From assembly GCA_001797815.1 (NCBI GenBank), contig MGQK01000009.1, forward strand, positions 43,310 through 60,438: a stretch of 17,129 nt of DNA, given 5' to 3'. Below, one piece after another: positions 6,786 through 16,931 of the stretch. The position numbers and the translations under genes are program-made. This DNA comes from Deltaproteobacteria bacterium RBG_13_61_14 (GTDB lineage Bacteria; RBG-13-61-14). Each line of letters opens with the position of its first letter. The stretch's first letter is position 1. The notes beneath the pieces are model-generated. The model was not told where the DNA came from, made no database searches, and saw only the letters and a program-made list of their open reading frames with translations.

Positions 6786-7490
6786 ATGACGACCTATCGG
6801 ATCACCATCCTCCGTTTCAACCCGGAGCAGGACCAGGAGCCTCACCCGGAGACCTACTCGGTCGAGGGGCAGGAAGGCTGGACCGTGCTCGATGCCCTGC
6901 ACCAGATCAAGTGGTTTCAGGACGGCACCCTCACCTTCCGCCGCTCCTGCCGGCACGGCATCTGCGGCTCCTGCGCCATGACCATCGCCGGGCTCAACGC
7001 CCTCGCCTGCGAGACCCAGCTCCAGACCCTGCCCGCCGAGTTCGCGGTCGAGCCGCTGCGCGGCCTTAAGGTGATCAAGGACCTGGCCGTGGACCTGGAG
7101 CCGATCTACCAGGCGCTTTACGCAATCAAGCCTTATCTCATCACCGACCAGCCGCCGCCCACCGACGCCGAGCGCCTGCAGTCACTCGAAGACCGCAAGA
7201 AGCTCGACGGGCTCTACGAGTGCATCCTCTGCGCCTGCTGCACGTCCTCCTGCCCCTCCTTCTGGGCCGACAAAAATTTCCTTGGCCCCCACGCCCTGCT
7301 CAAGGCCGACCGCTTTGTCCAGGACTCCCGCGACCAAGGCGCGGACGAGCGCCTGGCCGCGATTGACCACCGCCACGGGCTCTGGCGCTGCCACACCATC
7401 TTCAACTGCGCCGAGGCCTGTCCCAAGACCCTCAACCCCACGTCCGCCATTTCGCACCTGAAGCGGACGATTATCAAGGCCAAGTTCTAG
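6786..7490 (+). CDS. sdhB: Succinate dehydrogenase iron-sulfur subunit SdhB
   Basis: Electron-transfer subunit of complex II, 234 residues, carrying electrons from FAD to quinone. The [2Fe-2S] ligands are C55, C60, C63 (CRHGICGSC) and C75. The [4Fe-4S] ligands are C146, C149, C152 and C212. The [3Fe-4S] ligands are C156, C202 and C208. All ten expected cysteines are present, and their spacing follows the E. coli protein. The ribosome site GAGAGG lies somewhat far (about 11 bases) from ATG 6786. The gap before it (89 bp) holds two palindromes; the gap after it holds a heptad array whose first base is the last base of the stop codon. Confidence 0.97.
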   Translation: MTTYRITILRFNPEQDQEPHPETYSVEGQEGWTVLDALHQIKWFQDGTLTFRRSCRHGICGSCAMTIAGLNALACETQLQTLPAEFAVEPLRGLKVIKDLAVDLEPIYQALYAIKPYLITDQPPPTDAERLQSLEDRKKLDGLYECILCACCTSSCPSFWADKNFLGPHALLKADRFVQDSRDQGADERLAAIDHRHGLWRCHTIFNCAEACPKTLNPTSAISHLKRTIIKAKF

Positions 7491-8417: not shown

Positions 8418-8454
8418 CGGTTCGTGGAAGAAGTTCACGGTTCGCGGTTGGCAA
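8414..8454 (+). repeat. Heptad array C (one arm only)
   Basis: GTTGACG, GTTCGTG, a GAAGAA interruption, then GTTCACG, GTTCGCG, GTTGGCA. No inverted arm is seen downstream, so this is a half array. The methyltransferase stop codon (8415-8417) is inside the first heptad. Confidence 0.65.
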
Positions 8455-8462
8455 AAAGAGAG

Positions 8463-8489
8463 GTAGCCGCGACCGCGCTTCGGTCGCGG
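8463..8489. repeat. GTAGCC-type palindrome, copy 2
   Basis: GTAG followed by CCGCGACCG, loop CGCTT, CGGTCGCGG: a perfect 9-bp stem. It shares the GTAGCC head with the palindromes at 6733 and 8595 but has a different stem word. Confidence 0.6.
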
Positions 8490-8517
8490 GGAAAATTTGT
8501 TACGAGGAGACGAACCA

Positions 8518-8565
8518 ATGAATTTCAAAGTCCTGCCTCATTTGATACAAAAATTGATTCTCTGA
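8518..8565 (+). CDS. Possible 15-residue mini-ORF or remnant of a gene start
   Basis: ATG at 8518 follows a good GAGGAG ribosome site (8504-8509) and encodes MNFKVLPHLIQKLIL before TGA. The local sequence is AT-richer than its neighbours. It could be the broken 5' end of a lost gene, a small peptide, or chance; nothing identifies a function. Confidence 0.2.
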   Translation: MNFKVLPHLIQKLIL

Positions 8566-8594
8566 TTCAAGGAATCGGACCTTCTTTTTTTCAT

Positions 8595-8629
8595 GTAGCC
8601 CACCCTTCGTCCGAAGGGTGGGTTTATTT
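8595..8629 (+). terminator. Terminator-like GTAGCC palindrome between convergent genes
   Basis: CCCACCCTTCG (8599-8609), TC, CGAAGGGTGGG (8612-8622), a perfect 11-bp stem, followed by TTTATTT. It lies two bases before the end of the convergent radical SAM gene, so it suits termination of plus-strand transcription from the sdh side. It is also a close copy of the repeat at 6733-6765. Confidence 0.6.
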
Positions 8630-8630
8630 C

Positions 8631-10019
8631 TTACTGATTCACCGCGTCCTGGAACAGCAGCCGCAGGGTGAGAAAGGCATTGATGGCGGTGCGGAAGTTT
8701 TTCGGCACTACCTGGAGGATGCGGGCGATGCGCCGGGGGTCCAGGTAGAAGCGGCGGTAGGCCTGCTTGCACATGCGGTGGAGGGTCGCGTCCGGCACGG
8801 CGCTCAGGTTGACGCTGATCGAGAAGTAGTCGAGGAAGGTGGTGTCGGTCAGGTCCCGGCCCGAGCTCCGGGCCACCTCGGTGCCGGGGAAGGGGTTGAG
8901 GTAGAAGAAGCTGGCCACGTGCAAATCCGAATGAGCCGCGAAGTCCGCGGTCAGCTTCATCTCCGCCTCGGTCTCGGTCGGGAAACCCAGGATGAAATAG
9001 CCGGTCGCCACCATGCCCCGCTTCGCCGTCTCGGTGATGGCCCGGTTCACTTTCTCCAGGTCTATCCGCTTGTGGATAATTTCCTGGATGCGCGGGCTGC
9101 CCGACTCCACCGCGAACGCGATCCGGTAAAACCCCGCGGCCTGGAACAGGTCCAGCAGCTCGCCGTCCACCCGGTCGCCCCGGAGGCCGTTGGGGAGCGC
9201 GATCTTCAGCTTGAGCTTCCGCTCGATCAGCCCCCGCGCGATCGCCTTGGCCCGCTTGAGGTCCAGGTTAAAAGCGTCGTCCACGATCTCCAGCTCTTTG
9301 ACGCCGTAGCGCTCCTTAAGCATCGTGATCTCTTCGAGCACGTTCTCCGCGCTCCGGGTCCGGAACTTGCGGCCGAATAGGTTGTGGCAGAAAATGCAGC
9401 CGTAGGGGCACCCGCGCGAGGTGAAGACCGCCAGGGTCTTATGCGAGGTCTTGACGATGTTCTCCGAGTTGCGGCCCCAGCGCTTGAAATAGCTCTTCGG
9501 GTCCACCAGGTCCCAGGCGGGGGACAGCCGATCAAGATCTTCGAGCGCGGGCCGATTCCCGGTGAAACGCGTCGCCCCGTCCTCCCGGAGGATAAGGCCC
9601 CGCACCCCAGGAAGCTCCGCTTTGCCCTCGAAGGCATCCAGCAACTCCCGGGTGGTCTCTTCTCCCTCGCCCACCACCACCACATCTATGTTGGGATCGC
9701 TCAGCACGGCCTCGCGGTTGGCGGAAGCATAGGGGCCGCCCAGCAGGATCTTGGCCTGGGGCGCCGCCTGGCGCAAGAGCTTGGCCAGGTGATGGACTTC
9801 GCGCTGCTCGAAGCTTAACGCGCCGATCCCGATCACGTCGGGCTTCAACTCCGCCGCCCGACGCGCCACCGCCTCGAGTTCCAGCCGGCGGTTCCGGGCG
9901 TCCAGGATGGTCACCTCATCGCCCCGCCTCTCCCGCAGGTATTGAGCGATATAGGCCAATCCCAGCGGCACCGGCGTGGCGATAATAATCGAGTTGGGAC
10001 GGATCAATAAGACCTTCAT
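8631..10019 (-). CDS. B12-binding-domain radical SAM protein
   Basis: A 462-residue protein of the cobalamin-binding radical SAM group (BchE/HpnP/HpnR-like plan), which usually methylates or rearranges lipids, pigments or natural products. The N-terminal Rossmann-like B12 domain (residues 1-135) shows MKVLLIRPN, PLGLAYIAQYL, PDVIGIGALSF, KILLGGPYAS and VVVVGEGEET; it lacks the DxHxxG base-off histidine motif, as many members do. The radical SAM core starts at about 195 with C204, C208 and C211 (SRGCPYGCIFC) and continues through EIVDDAFNLD, IAFAVESGSP and GYFILGFPTET. The ATG at 10019 is chosen because family members begin MKVLLI; its ribosome site is weak, and a TTG ten codons upstream is possible. 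It is divergent from the tungsten operon. The substrate cannot be named. Confidence 0.9.
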   Translation of the reverse strand: MKVLLIRPNSIIIATPVPLGLAYIAQYLRERRGDEVTILDARNRRLELEAVARRAAELKPDVIGIGALSFEQREVHHLAKLLRQAAPQAKILLGGPYASANREAVLSDPNIDVVVVGEGEETTRELLDAFEGKAELPGVRGLILREDGATRFTGNRPALEDLDRLSPAWDLVDPKSYFKRWGRNSENIVKTSHKTLAVFTSRGCPYGCIFCHNLFGRKFRTRSAENVLEEITMLKERYGVKELEIVDDAFNLDLKRAKAIARGLIERKLKLKIALPNGLRGDRVDGELLDLFQAAGFYRIAFAVESGSPRIQEIIHKRIDLEKVNRAITETAKRGMVATGYFILGFPTETEAEMKLTADFAAHSDLHVASFFYLNPFPGTEVARSSGRDLTDTTFLDYFSISVNLSAVPDATLHRMCKQAYRRFYLDPRRIARILQVVPKNFRTAINAFLTLRLLFQDAVNQ

Positions 10020-10059: not shown

Positions 10060-10087
10060 TTGCCTTGGCTCCTGACTATGGTAAAAT
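10060..10087 (+). promoter_or_regulatory. Extended -10 promoter of the tup-moa operon
   Basis: TTGCCT (10060-10065), 16 bp, then TAAAAT (10082-10087) preceded by TGG, an extended -10 signal. The expected start, about seven bases on, is near 10094, immediately before the first strand of the riboswitch stem, so promoter and aptamer positions support each other. Confidence 0.65.
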
Positions 10088-10093
10088 AAATTT

Positions 10094-10190
10094 GTTCTCC
10101 GAGCCTGCGATCCTAAAGGGCATCCCAGGGACGCGGGCCGATAGGGTCGGGCGGGAAACGGCCCGGCCTCCCGGACTTGGAAAGGAGACC
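10094..10190 (+). promoter_or_regulatory. Moco/Tuco-type riboswitch (molybdenum/tungsten cofactor RNA motif)
   Basis: The leader folds into a multi-helix RNA. A closing stem pairs UCUCC (10096-10100) with GGAGA (10184-10188). One internal arm pairs CCUGCG (10104-10109) with CGCGGG (10132-10137), with short apical pairings UCC/GGA and GGG-CAU-CCC. A second arm is an 8-bp stem, GGUCGGGC (10145-10152) with GCCCGGCC (10161-10168), carrying the loop GGGAAACG. Words such as CUCCGAGCC, CCUAAAGGGC, GGGAAAC and GGAAAGGAG resemble, from memory, the Moco RNA motif (Rfam RF01055). The Shine-Dalgarno AAGGAG (10182-10187) is part of the closing stem, so ligand-stabilised folding would block translation. 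The first genes carry tungstate, which suggests the Tuco variant; I cannot settle which helix set is present. Confidence 0.8.
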
Positions 10191-10194
10191 GAAG

Positions 10195-11031
10195 ATTTTT
10201 TCCCTCAAGAATTTTTATCTTCACTCGGTCGGCTGGGGCCTGATCAGTTTATTGACAGCTTCCGCTTGGGCCAAGGAACCCGGCCGGCTAAAATTAGCCA
10301 CCACCACCAGCACGGAGAACTCCGGGCTCCTCGCCTACCTGCTCCCGGACTTTGAAAAACGCTTCGACCTCAAGGTGGACGTGATCGCCGTGGGGACCGG
10401 CAAGGCGCTCAAGCTGGCGGAGAACGGGGACGCCGACCTGGTCCTGGTCCACGCGCCCGAGCTGGAAGCGGCCTTTGTCCGGGCCGGGTTCGGAGTCAAC
10501 CGCCGGGCGGTGATGAAGAACGAATTCGTGATCGTAGGCCCGCCTGCGGACCCGGCCCGGGTCAAAGGCTCCTCCGACGCGGCTAAAGCCATGAGCCAGG
10601 TCAAGCAGAGCGGCGCGGTCTTTGTCTCCCGGGGCGACTACTCCGGCACCCACCAGAAAGAAAAGGCGCTCTGGGCCTTGGTCCAGGGCCAGCCGGAGAA
10701 GAATTACCTGGAGGCGGGGCAGGGCATGGAGGCGGCGCTCTTCATGGCCAATGAAAAGCAGGCTTACACCCTGACCGACCGGGGCACTTATCTCGCGGTG
10801 ATGGACAAGCTCAACCTCTTGATCCTCTTCGAGCACGACCCGATGCTCGATAACCCTTACAGCGTGATTGCGGTCAATCCCGGCCGCCACCCGCACGTCA
10901 ATTACCTGGACGCCATGCTCTTCATTGCCTGGCTCACTTCGCCCGAGACCCAGGCCAGGATCGAGACATTCCAAAAGCACGGCCAGGCGCTGTTCCGGCC
11001 CGCCGCCGTGCCCCAGCCGGCCCCGAAGTGA
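10195..11031 (+). CDS. tupA: Tungstate ABC transporter substrate-binding protein TupA
   Basis: Periplasmic or exported binding protein that captures tungstate for the TupBC transporter. Mature-family motifs are clear: LATTTSTENSGLL, VDVIAVGTGKAL, DLVLVHAPE, GFGVNRRAVMKNEFVIVGP, SRGDYSGTHQKE and AYTLTDRGTYLA. A signal peptide precedes them with likely cleavage after SAWA. The start is unusual. The only standard in-frame start upstream is TTG at 10177, which lies inside the riboswitch and has no ribosome site. AAGGAG at 10182-10187 points, at seven bases, to ATT at 10195, giving 278 residues and an ordinary signal peptide. If TTG were used the protein would be 284 residues. It is the first gene of the operon, directly under riboswitch control. 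Confidence 0.9.
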   Translation: MFSLKNFYLHSVGWGLISLLTASAWAKEPGRLKLATTTSTENSGLLAYLLPDFEKRFDLKVDVIAVGTGKALKLAENGDADLVLVHAPELEAAFVRAGFGVNRRAVMKNEFVIVGPPADPARVKGSSDAAKAMSQVKQSGAVFVSRGDYSGTHQKEKALWALVQGQPEKNYLEAGQGMEAALFMANEKQAYTLTDRGTYLAVMDKLNLLILFEHDPMLDNPYSVIAVNPGRHPHVNYLDAMLFIAWLTSPETQARIETFQKHGQALFRPAAVPQPAPK

Positions 11032-11039
11032 AGGTCAGG

Positions 11040-11675
11040 ATGGAACTGCTCGGCATCATCTGGGTCTCGCTCCGCGTCTCGCTCGCGGCCACCACCTTGG
11101 CCGCGCTGGCCTCGGTGCCGCTGGGCTTCTGGATCGCGGTCCGCGAGTTCCCGGGCAAGCGGGTCGTGGTCGTGATCCTCAACACCCTCTTCTCCCTGCC
11201 CACGGTGGTGGTCGGGCTCCTGGTTTACGGTCTGCTTTCGCATTCCGGCCCGCTGGGTTCGCTTAAACTTCTGTATACGCCCGCCGGCATGACCCTGGGC
11301 CAGTGGATCCTGGCCACCCCGGTCATTACTGCGCTAACCTATGCCGCGACCAAGGGGGTGGACGAGCGGGTCCGGCCCACGGCGCTCACCCTGGGGGCCG
11401 ACGGCTGGCAGGCCGGCCTGATGGTGCTGCGGGAGGCGCGCTACGGGCTTTTGGCCGCGGTGGTGGCCGGCTTCGGCCGGGTCATCTCCGAGGTGGGCGC
11501 GGCCATCATGATCGGCGGCAACATCCGGGGCTACACCCGCACCATCACCACCGCCATCGCGCTCGAGACCTCCAAGGGCGAGTTCCAAATCGGCCTGATC
11601 CTGGGCGTCATCCTCCTCGCGGTCGCCCTCTCGGTCAACCTCTTTGTCCACGCTTTCTTGCGGGCCAGACCATGA
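11040..11675 (+). CDS. tupB: Tungstate ABC transporter permease TupB
   Basis: Inner-membrane permease of about 211 residues with around five hydrophobic segments. TupB-like features are VREFPGKR after the first span, SLPTVVVGLLVYGLLSHSGPLG, and the cytoplasmic coupling loop REARYGLLAAVVAGFGRVISEVG (about 131-153), which is the EAA-type contact site for the ATPase. ATG at 11040 has AAGG five bases upstream. A GTG at 11028, overlapping the tupA stop codon, is an alternative that adds four residues. Its 3' end overlaps tupC by four bases (ATGA). Confidence 0.93.
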   Translation: MELLGIIWVSLRVSLAATTLAALASVPLGFWIAVREFPGKRVVVVILNTLFSLPTVVVGLLVYGLLSHSGPLGSLKLLYTPAGMTLGQWILATPVITALTYAATKGVDERVRPTALTLGADGWQAGLMVLREARYGLLAAVVAGFGRVISEVGAAIMIGGNIRGYTRTITTAIALETSKGEFQIGLILGVILLAVALSVNLFVHAFLRARP

Positions 11676-12703
11676 ACCCGAACCCCGCCTTCCGTCTCCG
11701 CCAGATCCGGCAAGAGATCCCCGGCCGCACCTTGCTCGAGGTGCCGGAGCTGGAATTTCCCACCGGCGAGGTGAGCGCTCTGGTCGGGCCCAACGGCGCG
11801 GGCAAGACCACCCTCTTCCGCATCCTGGCCCTGCTCGATCCGCCCTTCGCGGGCGCGCTCGAGTTCAGGGGCGAGCCGGCCGCCTTCTCCGGTCCGCGCT
11901 GGCTCGAGCTCCGCCGCCGGATCACCCTGGTCCACCAGACGCCGTTCCTGTTCCGCGGCACCGTGTTTCAGAACGTGGCCTTCGGGCTTCGCGTGCGGGG
12001 CGAGCCTCAGGCCATTTGGCCGCCGCGGGTGGCCGAGGCGCTCGAGCTGGTGGACCTGGGCGGGTTCCAGGACCGCTTCGTAATCGCGCTTTCCGGCGGC
12101 GAAGCCCAGCGGGTGGCGATCGCCCGGGCCCTGGCCGTCCAACCCGAGGTGCTGCTCCTGGACGAGCCTTTCGCCAACGTGGACGCCGGCCGGATCAGCC
12201 GGCTCGAAGCCCTGATCAGCGAGATCAACCACCGGCTCGGCGCCACCGTGATCTTCTCCACCCATAACCTGGGCCAGGCCTTCCGCCTCACCTCCCGCGT
12301 GGTGACCCTGGTGGCAGGCAAAGTGGCCGAGTTCGGACACGAGAACATCTTTTCCGGCGCGGTGGAGGGCGAGGGCGCGGAGCCCTGGATCACGGTCCGG
12401 GGCGGGTGGCGGATCAGGATCGGTCCCGGGGTCTCCGGCCGGGTCACCTGCTCGGTGCCGCCGGAGGCCATCGCCTTGCGGCCGGCCGGCGGGCCTGGAG
12501 CAAGCGAGTGCAATTGTTTTGAAGGTGAAATCACCCGGATGGAATGCCATAATGGCCGGGTGCGGCTCCGGGTGGACGGCCCGGTCAGCTTTCGCGTGGT
12601 GCTGCCGGATCAAGAATTTCAGCGGCAGGGAATTCGACTCGGCGACCGGGTAGTCGTGAGCTTCACTCCCGCCGCAGTCAAGATCTTGGAGGCCAAACCA
12701 TGA
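11672..12703 (+). CDS. tupC: Tungstate ABC transporter ATP-binding protein TupC
   Basis: ATPase driving tungstate import, 343 residues. Motifs: Walker A GPNGAGKTT (39-47), Q-loop Q89 (LVHQTPFLF), signature LSGGEAQRVA (140-149), Walker B VLLLDEPFANVD (160-171) and the H-loop STHN (H198). A C-terminal extension of ~100 residues (VPPEAIALRP onward) resembles the TOBE/Mop-like oxyanion-binding domain of ModC-type ATPases, which could give feedback inhibition by bound metal oxyanion (family knowledge, not shown here). Start ATG overlaps the tupB stop and its own stop overlaps the moeA ATG, both as ATGA, implying translational coupling. Confidence 0.93.
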   Translation: MNPNPAFRLRQIRQEIPGRTLLEVPELEFPTGEVSALVGPNGAGKTTLFRILALLDPPFAGALEFRGEPAAFSGPRWLELRRRITLVHQTPFLFRGTVFQNVAFGLRVRGEPQAIWPPRVAEALELVDLGGFQDRFVIALSGGEAQRVAIARALAVQPEVLLLDEPFANVDAGRISRLEALISEINHRLGATVIFSTHNLGQAFRLTSRVVTLVAGKVAEFGHENIFSGAVEGEGAEPWITVRGGWRIRIGPGVSGRVTCSVPPEAIALRPAGGPGASECNCFEGEITRMECHNGRVRLRVDGPVSFRVVLPDQEFQRQGIRLGDRVVVSFTPAAVKILEAKP

Positions 12704-13905
12704 TTCCATTTGATGAGGCATTGCAACTGGTCCTGGAGCAGGCGCGGCCGCTGCCGAGTGAGTCGGTGCCGGTGCTGGGCGCTCTGGGCCGGGTGTTGCG
12801 GGAGGACCTCCAGGCCCGGCATCCGATCCCGCCCTTTGACCGCTCGGCCATGGACGGCTACGCGGTGCGGGCGGAGGACGTGGCGACGGCGAGCGAGGAG
12901 CGGCCGGCGGTGCTGCAAGTGCTGGAAGATGTGCCGGCCGGCCGGCGCGCGAAAAAGCCGGTCGGCCCGGGCCAGGCGGTCCGGATCATGACCGGCGCGG
13001 CTCTTCCGAGAGGCGCGGACGCGGTGGTGATGGTCGAGTTTACCAAGGCCGAGGGCCAAGCGGTCAAGGTGCTGAAGCCGGTCCCGCCCGGCGAAAACCT
13101 GGTCCTGGCCGGGGAGGACGTGGAGGCGGGCCAGGTGGTGGTCGCCGCCGGCGCGGTCATCGGTCCGGCCGAGATGGGCATGCTCGCCGCGGTGGGGAAG
13201 AACAAGGTCAAGGTCTCGCGCCGGCCCCGGGTGGCGGTGATCTCGACCGGCGACGAGATCGTGGAGCCGGGGAAGACCATGAAGCCGGGCCAGATCCGCG
13301 ACGCCAACGGCTACTCCCTCTTCGGCATGGCCCGGGCCGCGGGCGCAGAAGTCCGGTTCCTCGGCATCGCCCGCGACACCAAAAGCCAACTCCTCGCCCG
13401 GCTCCGGCGCGCGCAGGGCTTTGACCTGGTGGTGCTCTCGGGCGGCGTCTCGGTCGGCGATTACGACCTGGTCCAGGACATCCTCCTGGGCCGGGGCGTG
13501 AAGCAGATCTTCTGGAAAGTCGCGATCAAGCCGGGCATGCCCATCTTCGTGGGCAGGCGCGGCCGGCAGGTGGTGTTCGGCCTGCCCGGCAACCCGGTCT
13601 CGTGCCTGGTGACCTTCGGCCTCTTCGTGCAACCGCTCCTGGATGCCATGCAGGGCAAGCGCCAGGTCGGCCTGCTCCGGGGCCGGGCCCGGCTCGCCGC
13701 GGACGTCAAAGTCAAGACCGGCCGGCGCCACTTCCTGCGGGGGGTCCTCGCTTTCCAGGACCTTGAGCCGCTGGTGACCGTGCTCCGCGACCAGCATTCG
13801 GGCGTGCTCCGGTCCATGCTGGAGGCCAACGTTTTAGTGGACGTGCCCGCTGATATCACCGGCCGGCCGGCCGGAACGGAGGTAGAGGTATGGCACCTCG
13901 CTTGA
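12700..13905 (+). CDS. moeA: Molybdopterin molybdenumtransferase MoeA
   Basis: Cytoplasmic enzyme that inserts molybdate, or tungstate in tungsten users, into adenylated molybdopterin. It is 401 residues, of normal length. Signs: [17 protein letters not shown] (44-60), [15 protein letters not shown] (96-110), [15 protein letters not shown] (177-191), [24 protein letters not shown] (243-256) and [13 protein letters not shown] (294-306). GGAGG seven bases upstream supports the ATG. Its place directly after the tungstate transporter suggests use in tungsten insertion. Some bacteria carry separate MoeA paralogues for Mo and W; this copy would be the W candidate. Its last 16 bases overlap moaC. 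Confidence 0.96.
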
Positions 13906-14402
13906 AGAAGCTCAGCCACCTGGACCGACGCGGCCAGGCGCGCATGAAGGACGTGGGCAAGAAGCCGGTCACCCGGCGGGAGGCGGTCGCCTCGGCGCGG
14001 GTCCAGATGCAGCCGGCCACGGTGCGCGCGCTGAAGACGAACGCGCTCGCCAAGGGCGACGCCCTGGCCGTGGCCCGGGTGGCCGGGATCCTGGCGGCGA
14101 AGCGGACCGCGGAGTTGATCCCGCTGTGCCATCCGCTGCCGCTCGATCAGGTGGAGGTGGATTTCGCCTTCGGCCGGAGCGAGGTGCGGATCACGGCGCG
14201 GGCGAAAGTCTCGGCCCGGACCGGGGTGGAGATGGAAGCTTTAACCGCGGCCGCGGTGGCGGCGCTCGCGATTTACGACATGGCCAAGGCGATTGACCGG
14301 GGCATGGTCATTACAGATCTGCAACTGGAGAAAAAATCCGGCGGCCGCTCCGGGACCTGGGTCCGCGGCCCCGGCCGGAAAACGAGGTCGCGGCGTGGGT
14401 AA
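13890..14402 (+). CDS. moaC: Cyclic pyranopterin monophosphate synthase MoaC
   Basis: Second enzyme of molybdopterin synthesis, converting the MoaA product (3',8-cyclo-GTP) to cPMP. It is 170 residues. Family motifs: [20 protein letters not shown] (71-90, with K71 and H81) and [21 protein letters not shown] followed by KAIDRGM (D130, K133 at the active site), then EKKSGGRSG. The last ~15 residues form a very basic tail, [12 protein letters not shown], of no known role, which may simply reflect the out-of-frame overlap with the next gene. GGAGG lies seven bases before the ATG. Confidence 0.96.
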
Positions 14403-14859
14403 GATCGTCTCCATCAACCTGAGCCGGAAAAAGGGCACGATCAAGCAGCCGGTGGCCAAGGCGGAGCTGGTCGCCGGGCTGGGAATTGCCGGCGACGCCC
14501 ATGCCGCGGCGGGGAATAGGCAGGTGAGCCTGCTCATGCAGGAGAGCATAGAGAAACAGAAGCGCCGGATGGAGAAAAATCCGGGGGAAAAGGTGAAGCT
14601 TAAGCCGGGGGTGTTCGCCGAGAACCTGACCACCGCGGGCATTGACCTCCTGGCGCTCCGCCTCGGCGATGAGCTAAAGCTGGGGAACGGCTTGCGCCTG
14701 CGGGTGTCGAAAATCGGGAAGGAGTGCCACACCCGCTGCGCGATCTCTGACCGCGCCGGGGATTGCGTGATGCCGCGGGAAGGGATTTTCTGCGAGGTGG
14801 CAATCGGCGGAAGCGTGCGGGTGGGCGACCGCATCGAGCAGGCGGAGCGGCATGCCTAG
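14395..14859 (+). CDS. MOSC-domain protein (molybdenum cofactor related)
   Basis: A 154-residue stand-alone MOSC domain. MOSC domains occur in Moco sulfurases and in small Moco-operon proteins, sometimes fused to MogA, and are thought to carry or transfer sulfur or handle the cofactor. Motifs seen: [19 protein letters not shown] at the start, [44 protein letters not shown] with C111, the conserved sulfur-carrying position, and [11 protein letters not shown]. The usual HAGxWHRQVSLL reads [12 protein letters not shown], so the Trp-His pair is missing. The start is GTG at 14395 with GAGG seven bases upstream, overlapping moaC by eight bases; upstream in-frame sequence is non-homologous. Confidence 0.9.
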
Positions 14860-15820
14860 TTTCCATTCGCTGCGCGTCTCGGTGACCGACCGCTGCAACT
14901 TGCGCTGCCAATACTGCATGGGACCCGAGGGCGTGTCCTGGATGCGGCCGGAAGAGATCTTGACCTTTGAAGAAATCGCGCGGGTGGCCGCGGCCGCGGT
15001 CGGGCTGGGGGTGAAGAAGCTCCGGATCACCGGGGGCGAGCCGCTGGTGCGCCAGGGGGTTGAAGACCTGGTGGCCATGCTCGCGGCCCTGTCCGGACTC
15101 GAGGACCTGGCGCTCACCACCAATGGCGTGCTCCTGGCCGGGAAGGCGAAGGGCCTCAAGGCCGCGGGCCTGAAGCGGGTGACGGTGAGCCTGGACACGC
15201 TGCGGCCGGAGAGGTTCGAGCAGATTACCGGGCAGGACCGGCTGGAGCAGGTCTGGGCCGGGATGGAGGCGGCGCTGGCCGCGGGCCTGGCGCCCTTGAA
15301 GATCAACGTGGTCTTGCTCCGGGGACAGAACGACGACGAAGTCCTGGACTTTGTCCGCCTGGCCGCGGCGCGGCGGATCGAAGTCCGCTTTATCGAGCGC
15401 ATGCCTTTCCCGGCCAAGGCCGCGGCGCATGAGGGCTGCGGGCTCCCGGTGAGAGAAAGCGAAGTGCAGGCGAAGATCGAGCAAGAATTCGGGCCGCTCC
15501 GGCCCATCCCCCGGGAGAACGCCTGGTCCGGCCCGGCCCGGGTCTATGCGGTCCCCGGGAACGGCGGCCGGGTGGGGTTCATCAGCCCGCTCAGCGAGCC
15601 GTTCTGCGAGAGCTGCGGCCGGATGCGGCTCACGCCCGAAGGAAAGCTCCGCGCCTGTCTGGCCTCGGAAACCGAGCTGGACTTGAAGGGGCCGCTCCGC
15701 GCCGGCGCCTCGCAAGAAGAGATCCAGGCGCTCCTTAACCAGGCGCTCGCGGCCAAGCCGCAGCAGCACGCGGCCCATTTCGCCTCGGTCGAGCGGGCCA
15801 TGTCCCGGATCGGAGGCTGA
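14852..15820 (+). CDS. moaA: GTP 3',8-cyclase MoaA
   Basis: Radical SAM enzyme starting molybdopterin synthesis by cyclising GTP. It is 322 residues with both clusters: N-terminal C15, C19, C22 (CNLRCQYC) and C-terminal C252, C255, C269 (CX2CX13C). RITGGEPLVRQ and SLDTL are core motifs, and the protein ends in IGG, the C-terminal Gly-Gly known to be needed for activity. The C-terminal motif reads FCESCGRMRLT where CNRxRLT is usual, an Asn to Gly change. It overlaps the MOSC gene by eight bases. No moaB/mog, moaD or moaE genes are in the window, so the later steps must be encoded elsewhere. Confidence 0.96.
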   Translation: MPSFHSLRVSVTDRCNLRCQYCMGPEGVSWMRPEEILTFEEIARVAAAAVGLGVKKLRITGGEPLVRQGVEDLVAMLAALSGLEDLALTTNGVLLAGKAKGLKAAGLKRVTVSLDTLRPERFEQITGQDRLEQVWAGMEAALAAGLAPLKINVVLLRGQNDDEVLDFVRLAAARRIEVRFIERMPFPAKAAAHEGCGLPVRESEVQAKIEQEFGPLRPIPRENAWSGPARVYAVPGNGGRVGFISPLSEPFCESCGRMRLTPEGKLRACLASETELDLKGPLRAGASQEEIQALLNQALAAKPQQHAAHFASVERAMSRIGG

Positions 15821-15833
15821 GGGGTTCCCGCGG

Positions 15834-16931
15834 ATGAGTCGGATTCCTCTTTACCTGGCCCTGGCCGCGGCGCCGCTCCCGCCGGCCCGGCCCCATTACC
15901 TGGTGCTCTTCGTCACCTCGCGCTGCAACGCGCGCTGCCGGATGTGCTTCAACTGGGAGACCCTGGAGCGAAACGGCGAAGGCGACCTGGCGCTCTCGGA
16001 GCTGCAAAAAATTGCCGGGCACTGGCCGGGTCTGATCCAGCTCACCCTTTCCGGCGGCGAGCCTTTCTTGCGGGATGACCTGGTGGAGGTGGTGGAGGCG
16101 TTTGTCCGGCGGGCCGGAGCGCGGCAGGTGAGCATCCCCAGCAACGCGATCCTGACCGAGCGCGTGGTCTCCTTCACCTCGGAAATCCTGCGCCGTTTTC
16201 CCGGCCTGCCGCTGAACCTCAATCTCTCGGTGGACGCGATCGGGGACGAGCACGATCGCATCCGGCAGGTGCCGGGCGCGTTCGCGGCCGCGATGCAGAC
16301 CGCCCAGGGGCTGATGGCGCTGCGGCGGAAATATCCCAACCTGCGCCTGGGCGCGACCGTGGTGCTGATGAAGCAGAACCACGACCGCATCCTCGAAACC
16401 CTCGTCCATCTTGAGCAAGCCTTTCCCTGGGACCGCCTGCAGGTGGAACTCGCCCGCGGCCGGACGCGCGAGCCGGACGCGGCGCAGGCGCCGCTCGCCC
16501 GCTACCAGGAGGCGGCGCGGTGGCTGCGGGAACGCGGCCCGGCTTCGGGATCGCTCCTGAGCTATTTGCACCACCGCCTGGCCGGCCGGATGCGGGAGGT
16601 CTTGATCCAGACGGTCCACGAAAACCGGATGGTGGTGCCCTGCCGGGCCGGGCAAGAGCTCCTGGTGGTGGAAGCGGACGGCACGGTGCGGCCGTGCGAG
16701 GTGCTGCACACGCTCGATCCGGAGGGGCTTCGCGAGCAAGGTCTTGCGGATCTGAGCCTGGGCAATCTCCGGGAGAACGATTATCGCATCACCGAAATCC
16801 TCCGCTCGCCCCGCGCCCAAAAGATCCGCGCCGGGATCGTGCGCCGCCGCTGCCACTGCAGCTACGAGTGCGCGCTCTATGCGGGGCTGGTCTTCAATCC
16901 CCGGCAGTGGTCCTGGATGATCAAGGCCTGA
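15834..16931 (+). CDS. Radical SAM protein with SPASM-like C-terminus, possible tungstoenzyme maturase
   Basis: A 365-residue radical SAM protein, 13 bp after moaA and probably in the same transcript (AGGGG about nine bases before ATG). C31, C35, C38 (SRCNARCRMC) bind the SAM-cleaving cluster; TLSGGEPFLRDDL, IPSNAIL and LSVDAIGDEHD continue the core. The C-terminal part has C270, C288 (PCRAGQELLVVEADGTVRPC), then C340, C342, C346 (CHCSYEC), a SPASM-like arrangement for an extra cluster. SPASM proteins usually modify peptides or proteins. Known radical SAM maturases accompany tungsten cofactor oxidoreductases (for example TIGR04317), which makes such a role possible here, but no oxidoreductase gene or peptide substrate is visible. 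Function unknown; the maturase idea rests on context only. Confidence 0.85.
   Translation: MSRIPLYLALAAAPLPPARPHYLVLFVTSRCNARCRMCFNWETLERNGEGDLALSELQKIAGHWPGLIQLTLSGGEPFLRDDLVEVVEAFVRRAGARQVSIPSNAILTERVVSFTSEILRRFPGLPLNLNLSVDAIGDEHDRIRQVPGAFAAAMQTAQGLMALRRKYPNLRLGATVVLMKQNHDRILETLVHLEQAFPWDRLQVELARGRTREPDAAQAPLARYQEAARWLRERGPASGSLLSYLHHRLAGRMREVLIQTVHENRMVVPCRAGQELLVVEADGTVRPCEVLHTLDPEGLREQGLADLSLGNLRENDYRITEILRSPRAQKIRAGIVRRRCHCSYECALYAGLVFNPRQWSWMIKA

Follow-up and report, generated by a model that had tools for sequence, protein, structure and literature searches.

The window (the whole analysed stretch of 17,129 nucleotides) contains an operon with the gene order tupABC-moeA-moaC-MOSC-moaA located behind a Moco RNA, a gene context characteristic of this riboswitch family. 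As the original prediction had proposed, the operon combines tungstate uptake with cofactor synthesis. The features of the locus, all on the forward strand, are as follows:

10060-10065 (+), −35-like hexamer TTGCCT, predicted with a consensus scan
10079-10087 (+), predicted extended −10 element TGGTAAAAT, with the start predicted at about 10094
10085-10203 (+), Moco/Tuco RNA (RF01055), core at 10096-10188, P3 absent; 75.3 bits with cmscan and 97.6 bits with our own covariance model R1, whose training set included the window copy
10096-10100 (+), 5′ strand of P1 (UCUCC), partner GGAGA at 10184-10188; the outer P1 pairs covary
10103-10138 (+), helix P2 with an inner extension; covariation in both alignments, A1 and A3
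10144-10169 (+), helix P4 with a GAAA tetraloop at 10155-10158; covariation
10170-10180 (+), two-pair helix P5 (CC 10170-10171 with GG 10179-10180) and the conserved UUGG
10181-10187 (+), Shine-Dalgarno sequence AAAGGAG, read from the sequence, with GGAG within the P1 3′ strand (10184-10188)
10195-11031 (+), tupA, tungstate-binding protein, likely starting with AUU (alternative UUG at 10177); NF041772, E 7.2e-67, 225.5 bits
11028-11675 (+), tupB, permease; NF038017 with 241.5 bits (above the cut-off) and NF041773 with 175.5 bits (below)
11672-12703 (+), tupC-like ATPase; best NCBIfam match WtpC with 164.9 bits, below the cut-off
12700-13905 (+), moeA; best Glp/MoeA families with 386 bits, below the equivalog cut-offs, and the TIGR00177 domain above the cut-off
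13890-14402 (+), moaC; TIGR00581 above the cut-off
14293-14859 (+), MOSC-domain protein matching the MOSC half of PRK14499; the limits are those of the open frame, and translation probably begins further in
14852-15820 (+), moaA; TIGR02666 above the cut-off
15834-16931 (+), radical SAM/SPASM protein, the last gene of the run

NF041772 is the best family for TupA, even though its score of 225.5 bits does not reach the NCBIfam equivalog cut-off of 400 bits. The residues of the tungstate site named for the D. alaskensis protein (5my5; PMC5517513), TTTS, His59, Arg118, Thr124 and Asp170, are conserved in the alignment to that structure. The order of the tup operon is conserved in two related genomes. 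A nearer relative of the window locus was sought among genome contigs, and the only candidate (L010, 57% identity) belongs to a genome without a Moco RNA.

RF01055 (Molybdenum/Tungsten riboswitch aptamer) was the sole Rfam match at the gathering level in the window. The covariance search, suggested in the original prediction, aligned the RNA over the full length of the model (positions 1-135) with E 5.7e-17 and a score more than twice the gathering score of 36 bits. Pairing of the initial UCUCC with a GGAGA about 85 nt later had been proposed together with two internal helices, and these are indeed P1, P2 and the GAAA-capped P4. P1, P2, P4 and P5 were all recovered in the minimum-energy fold of 10094-10190. 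The folding energy by itself is modest (z −2.38), and the main support for the fold is therefore the covariance-model score and the covariation. For 30 sequences aligned with MAFFT, both partners vary in 18 of 31 pairs, with a covariation score of 0.398 (0.170 for shuffles and at most 0.114 for slid partners). With 121 model-aligned copies, 27 of 31 pairs vary in this way and the score is 0.477 versus 0.188 for shuffled sequences, although this alignment was fitted to the structure and leans towards it. P1, P2 and P4 covary and the core words typical of the family are conserved; both the match and the covariation in relatives, the absence of which was to speak against the assignment, are present. 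The tupA leader RNA is a genuine member of the Moco/Tuco riboswitch family and extends this known class into a little-sampled phylum.

The promoter predicted upstream of the aptamer is of the sigma-70 type and comprises TTGCCT (10060-10065), 16 nt of spacer and TAAAAT (10082-10087), with TG ahead of the −10 hexamer. The scan found one promoter, where shuffled sequences gave a mean of 0.1, in agreement with the extended −10 promoter described originally, and it would place the transcription start near 10094, 2 nt ahead of P1. The arrangement had also been called unusually compact. This is only partly right, as the tight spacing is enriched in the family: the best −10-like hexamer lies 7-9 nt before P1 in 31 of 118 leaders (shuffled mean 11.2, sd 3.2), and a TGN-type −10 ends 7-8 nt before P1 in three of the four copies of the two related genomes. 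The compact promoter-aptamer spacing is a habit of the family and no peculiarity of the window.

RF01055 copies were collected from two sets of genomes. Three genomes belong to the window's phylum and yielded seven copies; the other 395 belong to the phylum of a second genome that carries TupA, and 78 of them had a match. From these, 127 copies were extracted in addition to the window's own. Binding proteins (24), MoaA (21) and Porin_O_P (16) are the three top classes among 113 distinct first genes behind the RNAs, these counts being approximate and probably lower bounds, since ORF calling errs in the choice of frame in GC-rich loci. Tandem Moco RNAs about 150-400 nt apart precede the same gene, often a porin, in L065, L071, L076, L084, L087, L091, L093, L100 and L128. 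P3-less copies were also observed before small subunits of [NiFe] hydrogenases (five first genes, likely L086, L105, L109, L142 and L143) and before aldehyde dehydrogenase family genes (three, likely L074, L098 and L107). Neither of these two kinds of enzyme needs Mo or W, and such copies could constitute a metal-sparing switch, by which W-independent enzymes would be made at low cofactor supply.

The GGAGA of P1 (10184-10188) overlaps the Shine-Dalgarno sequence (10181-10187), as had been predicted, and the leader probably controls translation as a P3-less riboswitch of the Moco family, in the proposed Tuco subtype. Transcription would start about 2 nt ahead of the aptamer, so that the 5′ end of the transcript would be the P1 strand. 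When the molybdopterin cofactor, most likely its tungsten form in this organism, is abundant, the aptamer would be stabilised, P1 would close and the GGAG of the Shine-Dalgarno sequence, being part of the P1 3′ strand, would be masked; less TupA and, by polarity through the operon, less of the products of the cotranscribed uptake and synthesis genes would be made. When the cofactor is scarce, P1 would open and the ribosome would bind. In the minimum-energy fold of a longer leader (10094-10215) P1 is open, hence this helix seems only marginally stable without ligand.

The sibling copies suggest the direction of control. The phylum has six other copies, among them the ones that precede tupA in the two related genomes, and in all six the aptamer is followed by a hairpin and a U tract (a terminator); a terminator was called in 86 of the 128 collected copies. 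A run of at least 6 nt complementary to the 3′ core of the aptamer was found in 58 of 82 terminator-bearing copies, versus 6.7 expected from mononucleotide shuffles. In the sibling copies, an intact aptamer should therefore favour the terminator. Such complementarity would be expected of a core strand that forms an antiterminator as long as no ligand is bound, so that the ligand turns the genes OFF. The window copy would arrive at OFF control as well, but through translation. Within one small clade, the tup operon would then be headed by switches of both kinds, translational and terminator-based.

A tungsten-cofactor OFF switch on translation is the best reading of the locus. The tungsten part of it is suggested by the genome context, namely six AFOR_C genes (aldehyde:ferredoxin-oxidoreductase type) and no detectable ModA; ModA gave no match in all three genomes of the phylum, and the identical search was positive in 11 of 14 control genomes. 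The organism carries the tungsten genes (tup, AOR) expected for the Tuco subtype, and P3, the absence of which is the published hallmark of that subtype, is missing from the window copy in the cmscan alignment. The tungsten cofactor was proposed as the ligand of P3-less RNAs in Regulski et al. 2008 (PMC2408646), where 17 of the 19 organisms that have such RNAs carry Tuco genes, a correlation on which the assumed tungsten specificity also leans. The check for P3, recommended in the original prediction, yielded a broader result as well: the P2-P4 junction (J2/4) is 3-6 nt long in all 121 aligned copies, none of which has a P3. P3 is missing irrespective of the downstream gene, including copies before Mo-hydroxylase-type genes (six first genes carry a molybdopterin-dehydrogenase FAD domain), and for this reason the correlation is weaker in our survey and the absence of P3 may characterise the lineage instead of marking tungsten. 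Accompanied by the finding that deletion of P3 brought no switch of specificity in E. coli (PMC2408646), this favours a riboswitch sensing Moco, or both cofactors without discrimination. We regard such a sensor as unlikely here, in view of the six AFOR genes, the Tup system and the missing ModA; oxyanion uptake probably consists mainly of tungstate. An AFOR_C match at L150 (G001:C40:8484-9605) lies in a 602-aa frame with one in-frame TGA, which may represent selenocysteine, frame damage or a sequencing error.

Further points against the best reading are the open P1 in the fold of the longer leader, the terminators of the six sibling copies and the start codon of tupA. The terminators agree with a leader acting on transcription, through an overlapping weak terminator or Rho, and the minimum-energy fold of 10094-10215 does contain a hairpin, CGGACUU-GGAAAG-GAGACCG, followed by AAGAUUUUUU. 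This hairpin contains one mismatch and one G-U pair, and 4 nt separate it from the U tract. Acting as a terminator, it would turn the operon ON in the presence of ligand, the reverse of the logic in the siblings. As it is weak and wrongly placed, and neither scan called any terminator in the window leader, a terminator was rejected and transcriptional control appears quite improbable. Concerning the start codon, no ATG, GTG or TTG is present in any frame at a usable distance after the Shine-Dalgarno sequence, so that a standard start there was rejected. The likely start is AUU at 10195, which lies 7 nt after the Shine-Dalgarno sequence and is the first candidate in frame with normal spacing. 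AUN initiation seems possible in this genome, because its infC gene (L155, G000:C119, about 8454-8957, minus strand) apparently starts with AUC behind AAGGAGG. The only standard codon nearby is UUG at 10177, within the conserved UUGGAAAGG of the aptamer; were it the start, folding would mask the start codon directly. It is in frame, and the resulting reading MERRPKIF resembles METPKFF of the relative G080 (L049), which has the same layout and reads GGAAAGGAG-TAAGATGTC-ATG-GAG-ACA-CCG-AAG-TTC-TTC, while the window reads GGAAAGGAG-ACCGAAG-ATTTTTTCC at the matching position. A deletion between two GGAGA-like words may have removed the ATG of tupA, or the missing codon may reflect a base error in the assembly. 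However, position 10177 has no upstream Shine-Dalgarno sequence, and UUGG is expected there anyway as conserved aptamer sequence; initiation at UUG is accordingly doubtful beside the well-spaced AUU.

The porin association is the part most worth following, the riboswitch otherwise being clean and well supported with a slightly odd start codon. The Porin_O_P first genes encode porins of the OprP/OprO type and include one in the window's own genome, where a Porin_O_P gene (PF07396, E 4.8e-23) follows the second Moco RNA (C41). Several genomes have the Moco RNA, the porin gene and tupA in this succession. Loci with a PF07396 porin gene immediately after a P3-less Moco RNA include:

L005:7097-8416 (−), porin gene
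L096:720-2168, porin gene
L065:4530-5783 (−), porin gene
L100:4543-5796 (−), porin gene
L141:1278-2525, porin gene
L057, L106, L111, L117, L128, L137 and L090, porin genes of the same kind

Exactly one PF07396 match, the riboswitch-linked one, was found in 10 of 19 genomes, of which 17 had been picked for the RNA-porin linkage and two are relatives. With one to few such genes per genome, chance adjacency is well below 1% per RNA by rough estimate rather than by a formal test. The linkage suggests a cofactor-controlled step of outer-membrane entry of tungstate or molybdate, and transport of these oxyanions by the linked porins is our hypothesis. We lean, with some reserve, towards the view that P3-less Moco RNAs control a dedicated tungstate/molybdate porin of the OprP/OprO type in at least two phyla; the riboswitch would then govern outer-membrane entry, periplasmic binding, import and cofactor synthesis, the window operon and the porin copy of its genome being one instance. 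No published link between Moco RNAs and porins was found in the literature searched, a scope that excluded most subscription journals and all supplements, and porins are not mentioned in the main text of PMC2408646. PF07396 porins under Fur control have been described (PMC545781). If confirmed, the link would identify the step by which tungstate or molybdate crosses the outer membrane, and porin-tupA would offer a clean reporter for whether P3-less RNAs sense the tungsten cofactor.

Other Moco RNA loci were observed in these genomes. Both related genomes have a Moco RNA-led operon (L011:853-4845, minus strand; L014:2166-6135, plus strand) that encodes a lipoprotein with kelch repeats, a secreted protein in which two CxxCH motifs for haem binding occur, and a Porin_O_P protein. 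The third Moco RNA of the window's genome (L004, about 7011-7116, minus strand, downstream to 6427) comprises an aptamer and a terminator. They are followed by a short frame, which opens like a signal peptide and ends early (MQRKKGWGGKVVTVLVVLTGAALL-stop), and then by an apparently separately promoted CbiMNQO cluster; the RNA is possibly an orphaned switch. CbiMNQO behind the C125 copy was rejected as a riboswitch target, because a promoter-like sequence of its own lies about 540 nt downstream and a broken frame intervenes.

The linked porins resemble the phosphate and pyrophosphate porins OprP and OprO in profile (OprO 4rjx, E 4e-41; OprP 2o4v, E 7e-40) and in predicted fold. The model of one of them has a mean pLDDT of 81, its top three PDB matches are OprP and OprO, and it matches 2o4v and 4rjw with a TM by target of 0.76; the two arginines (RR) of the FRRA motif are largely conserved. 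Unlike OprP and OprO, to which they are 21-22% identical in the fold alignment, they stand behind a Moco RNA and, in some genomes, beside tupA. The window RNA shares with the P3-less (Tuco) subtype of RF01055 its fold, core, lack of P3, Moco/Tuco gene context and ribosome site in P1. It differs in the absence of a standard start codon after the Shine-Dalgarno sequence, and in that the other copies of its phylum, represented by three genomes in the searched set, use terminators. The moaA riboswitch of E. coli, in which Moco represses and the ribosome site lies inside P1 (PMC2408646), provides the counterpart for the proposed translational control. The E. coli riboswitch responds to Moco but shows no response to tungstate (PMC2408646), whereas the window copy is P3-less and heads an operon that includes tungstate uptake.
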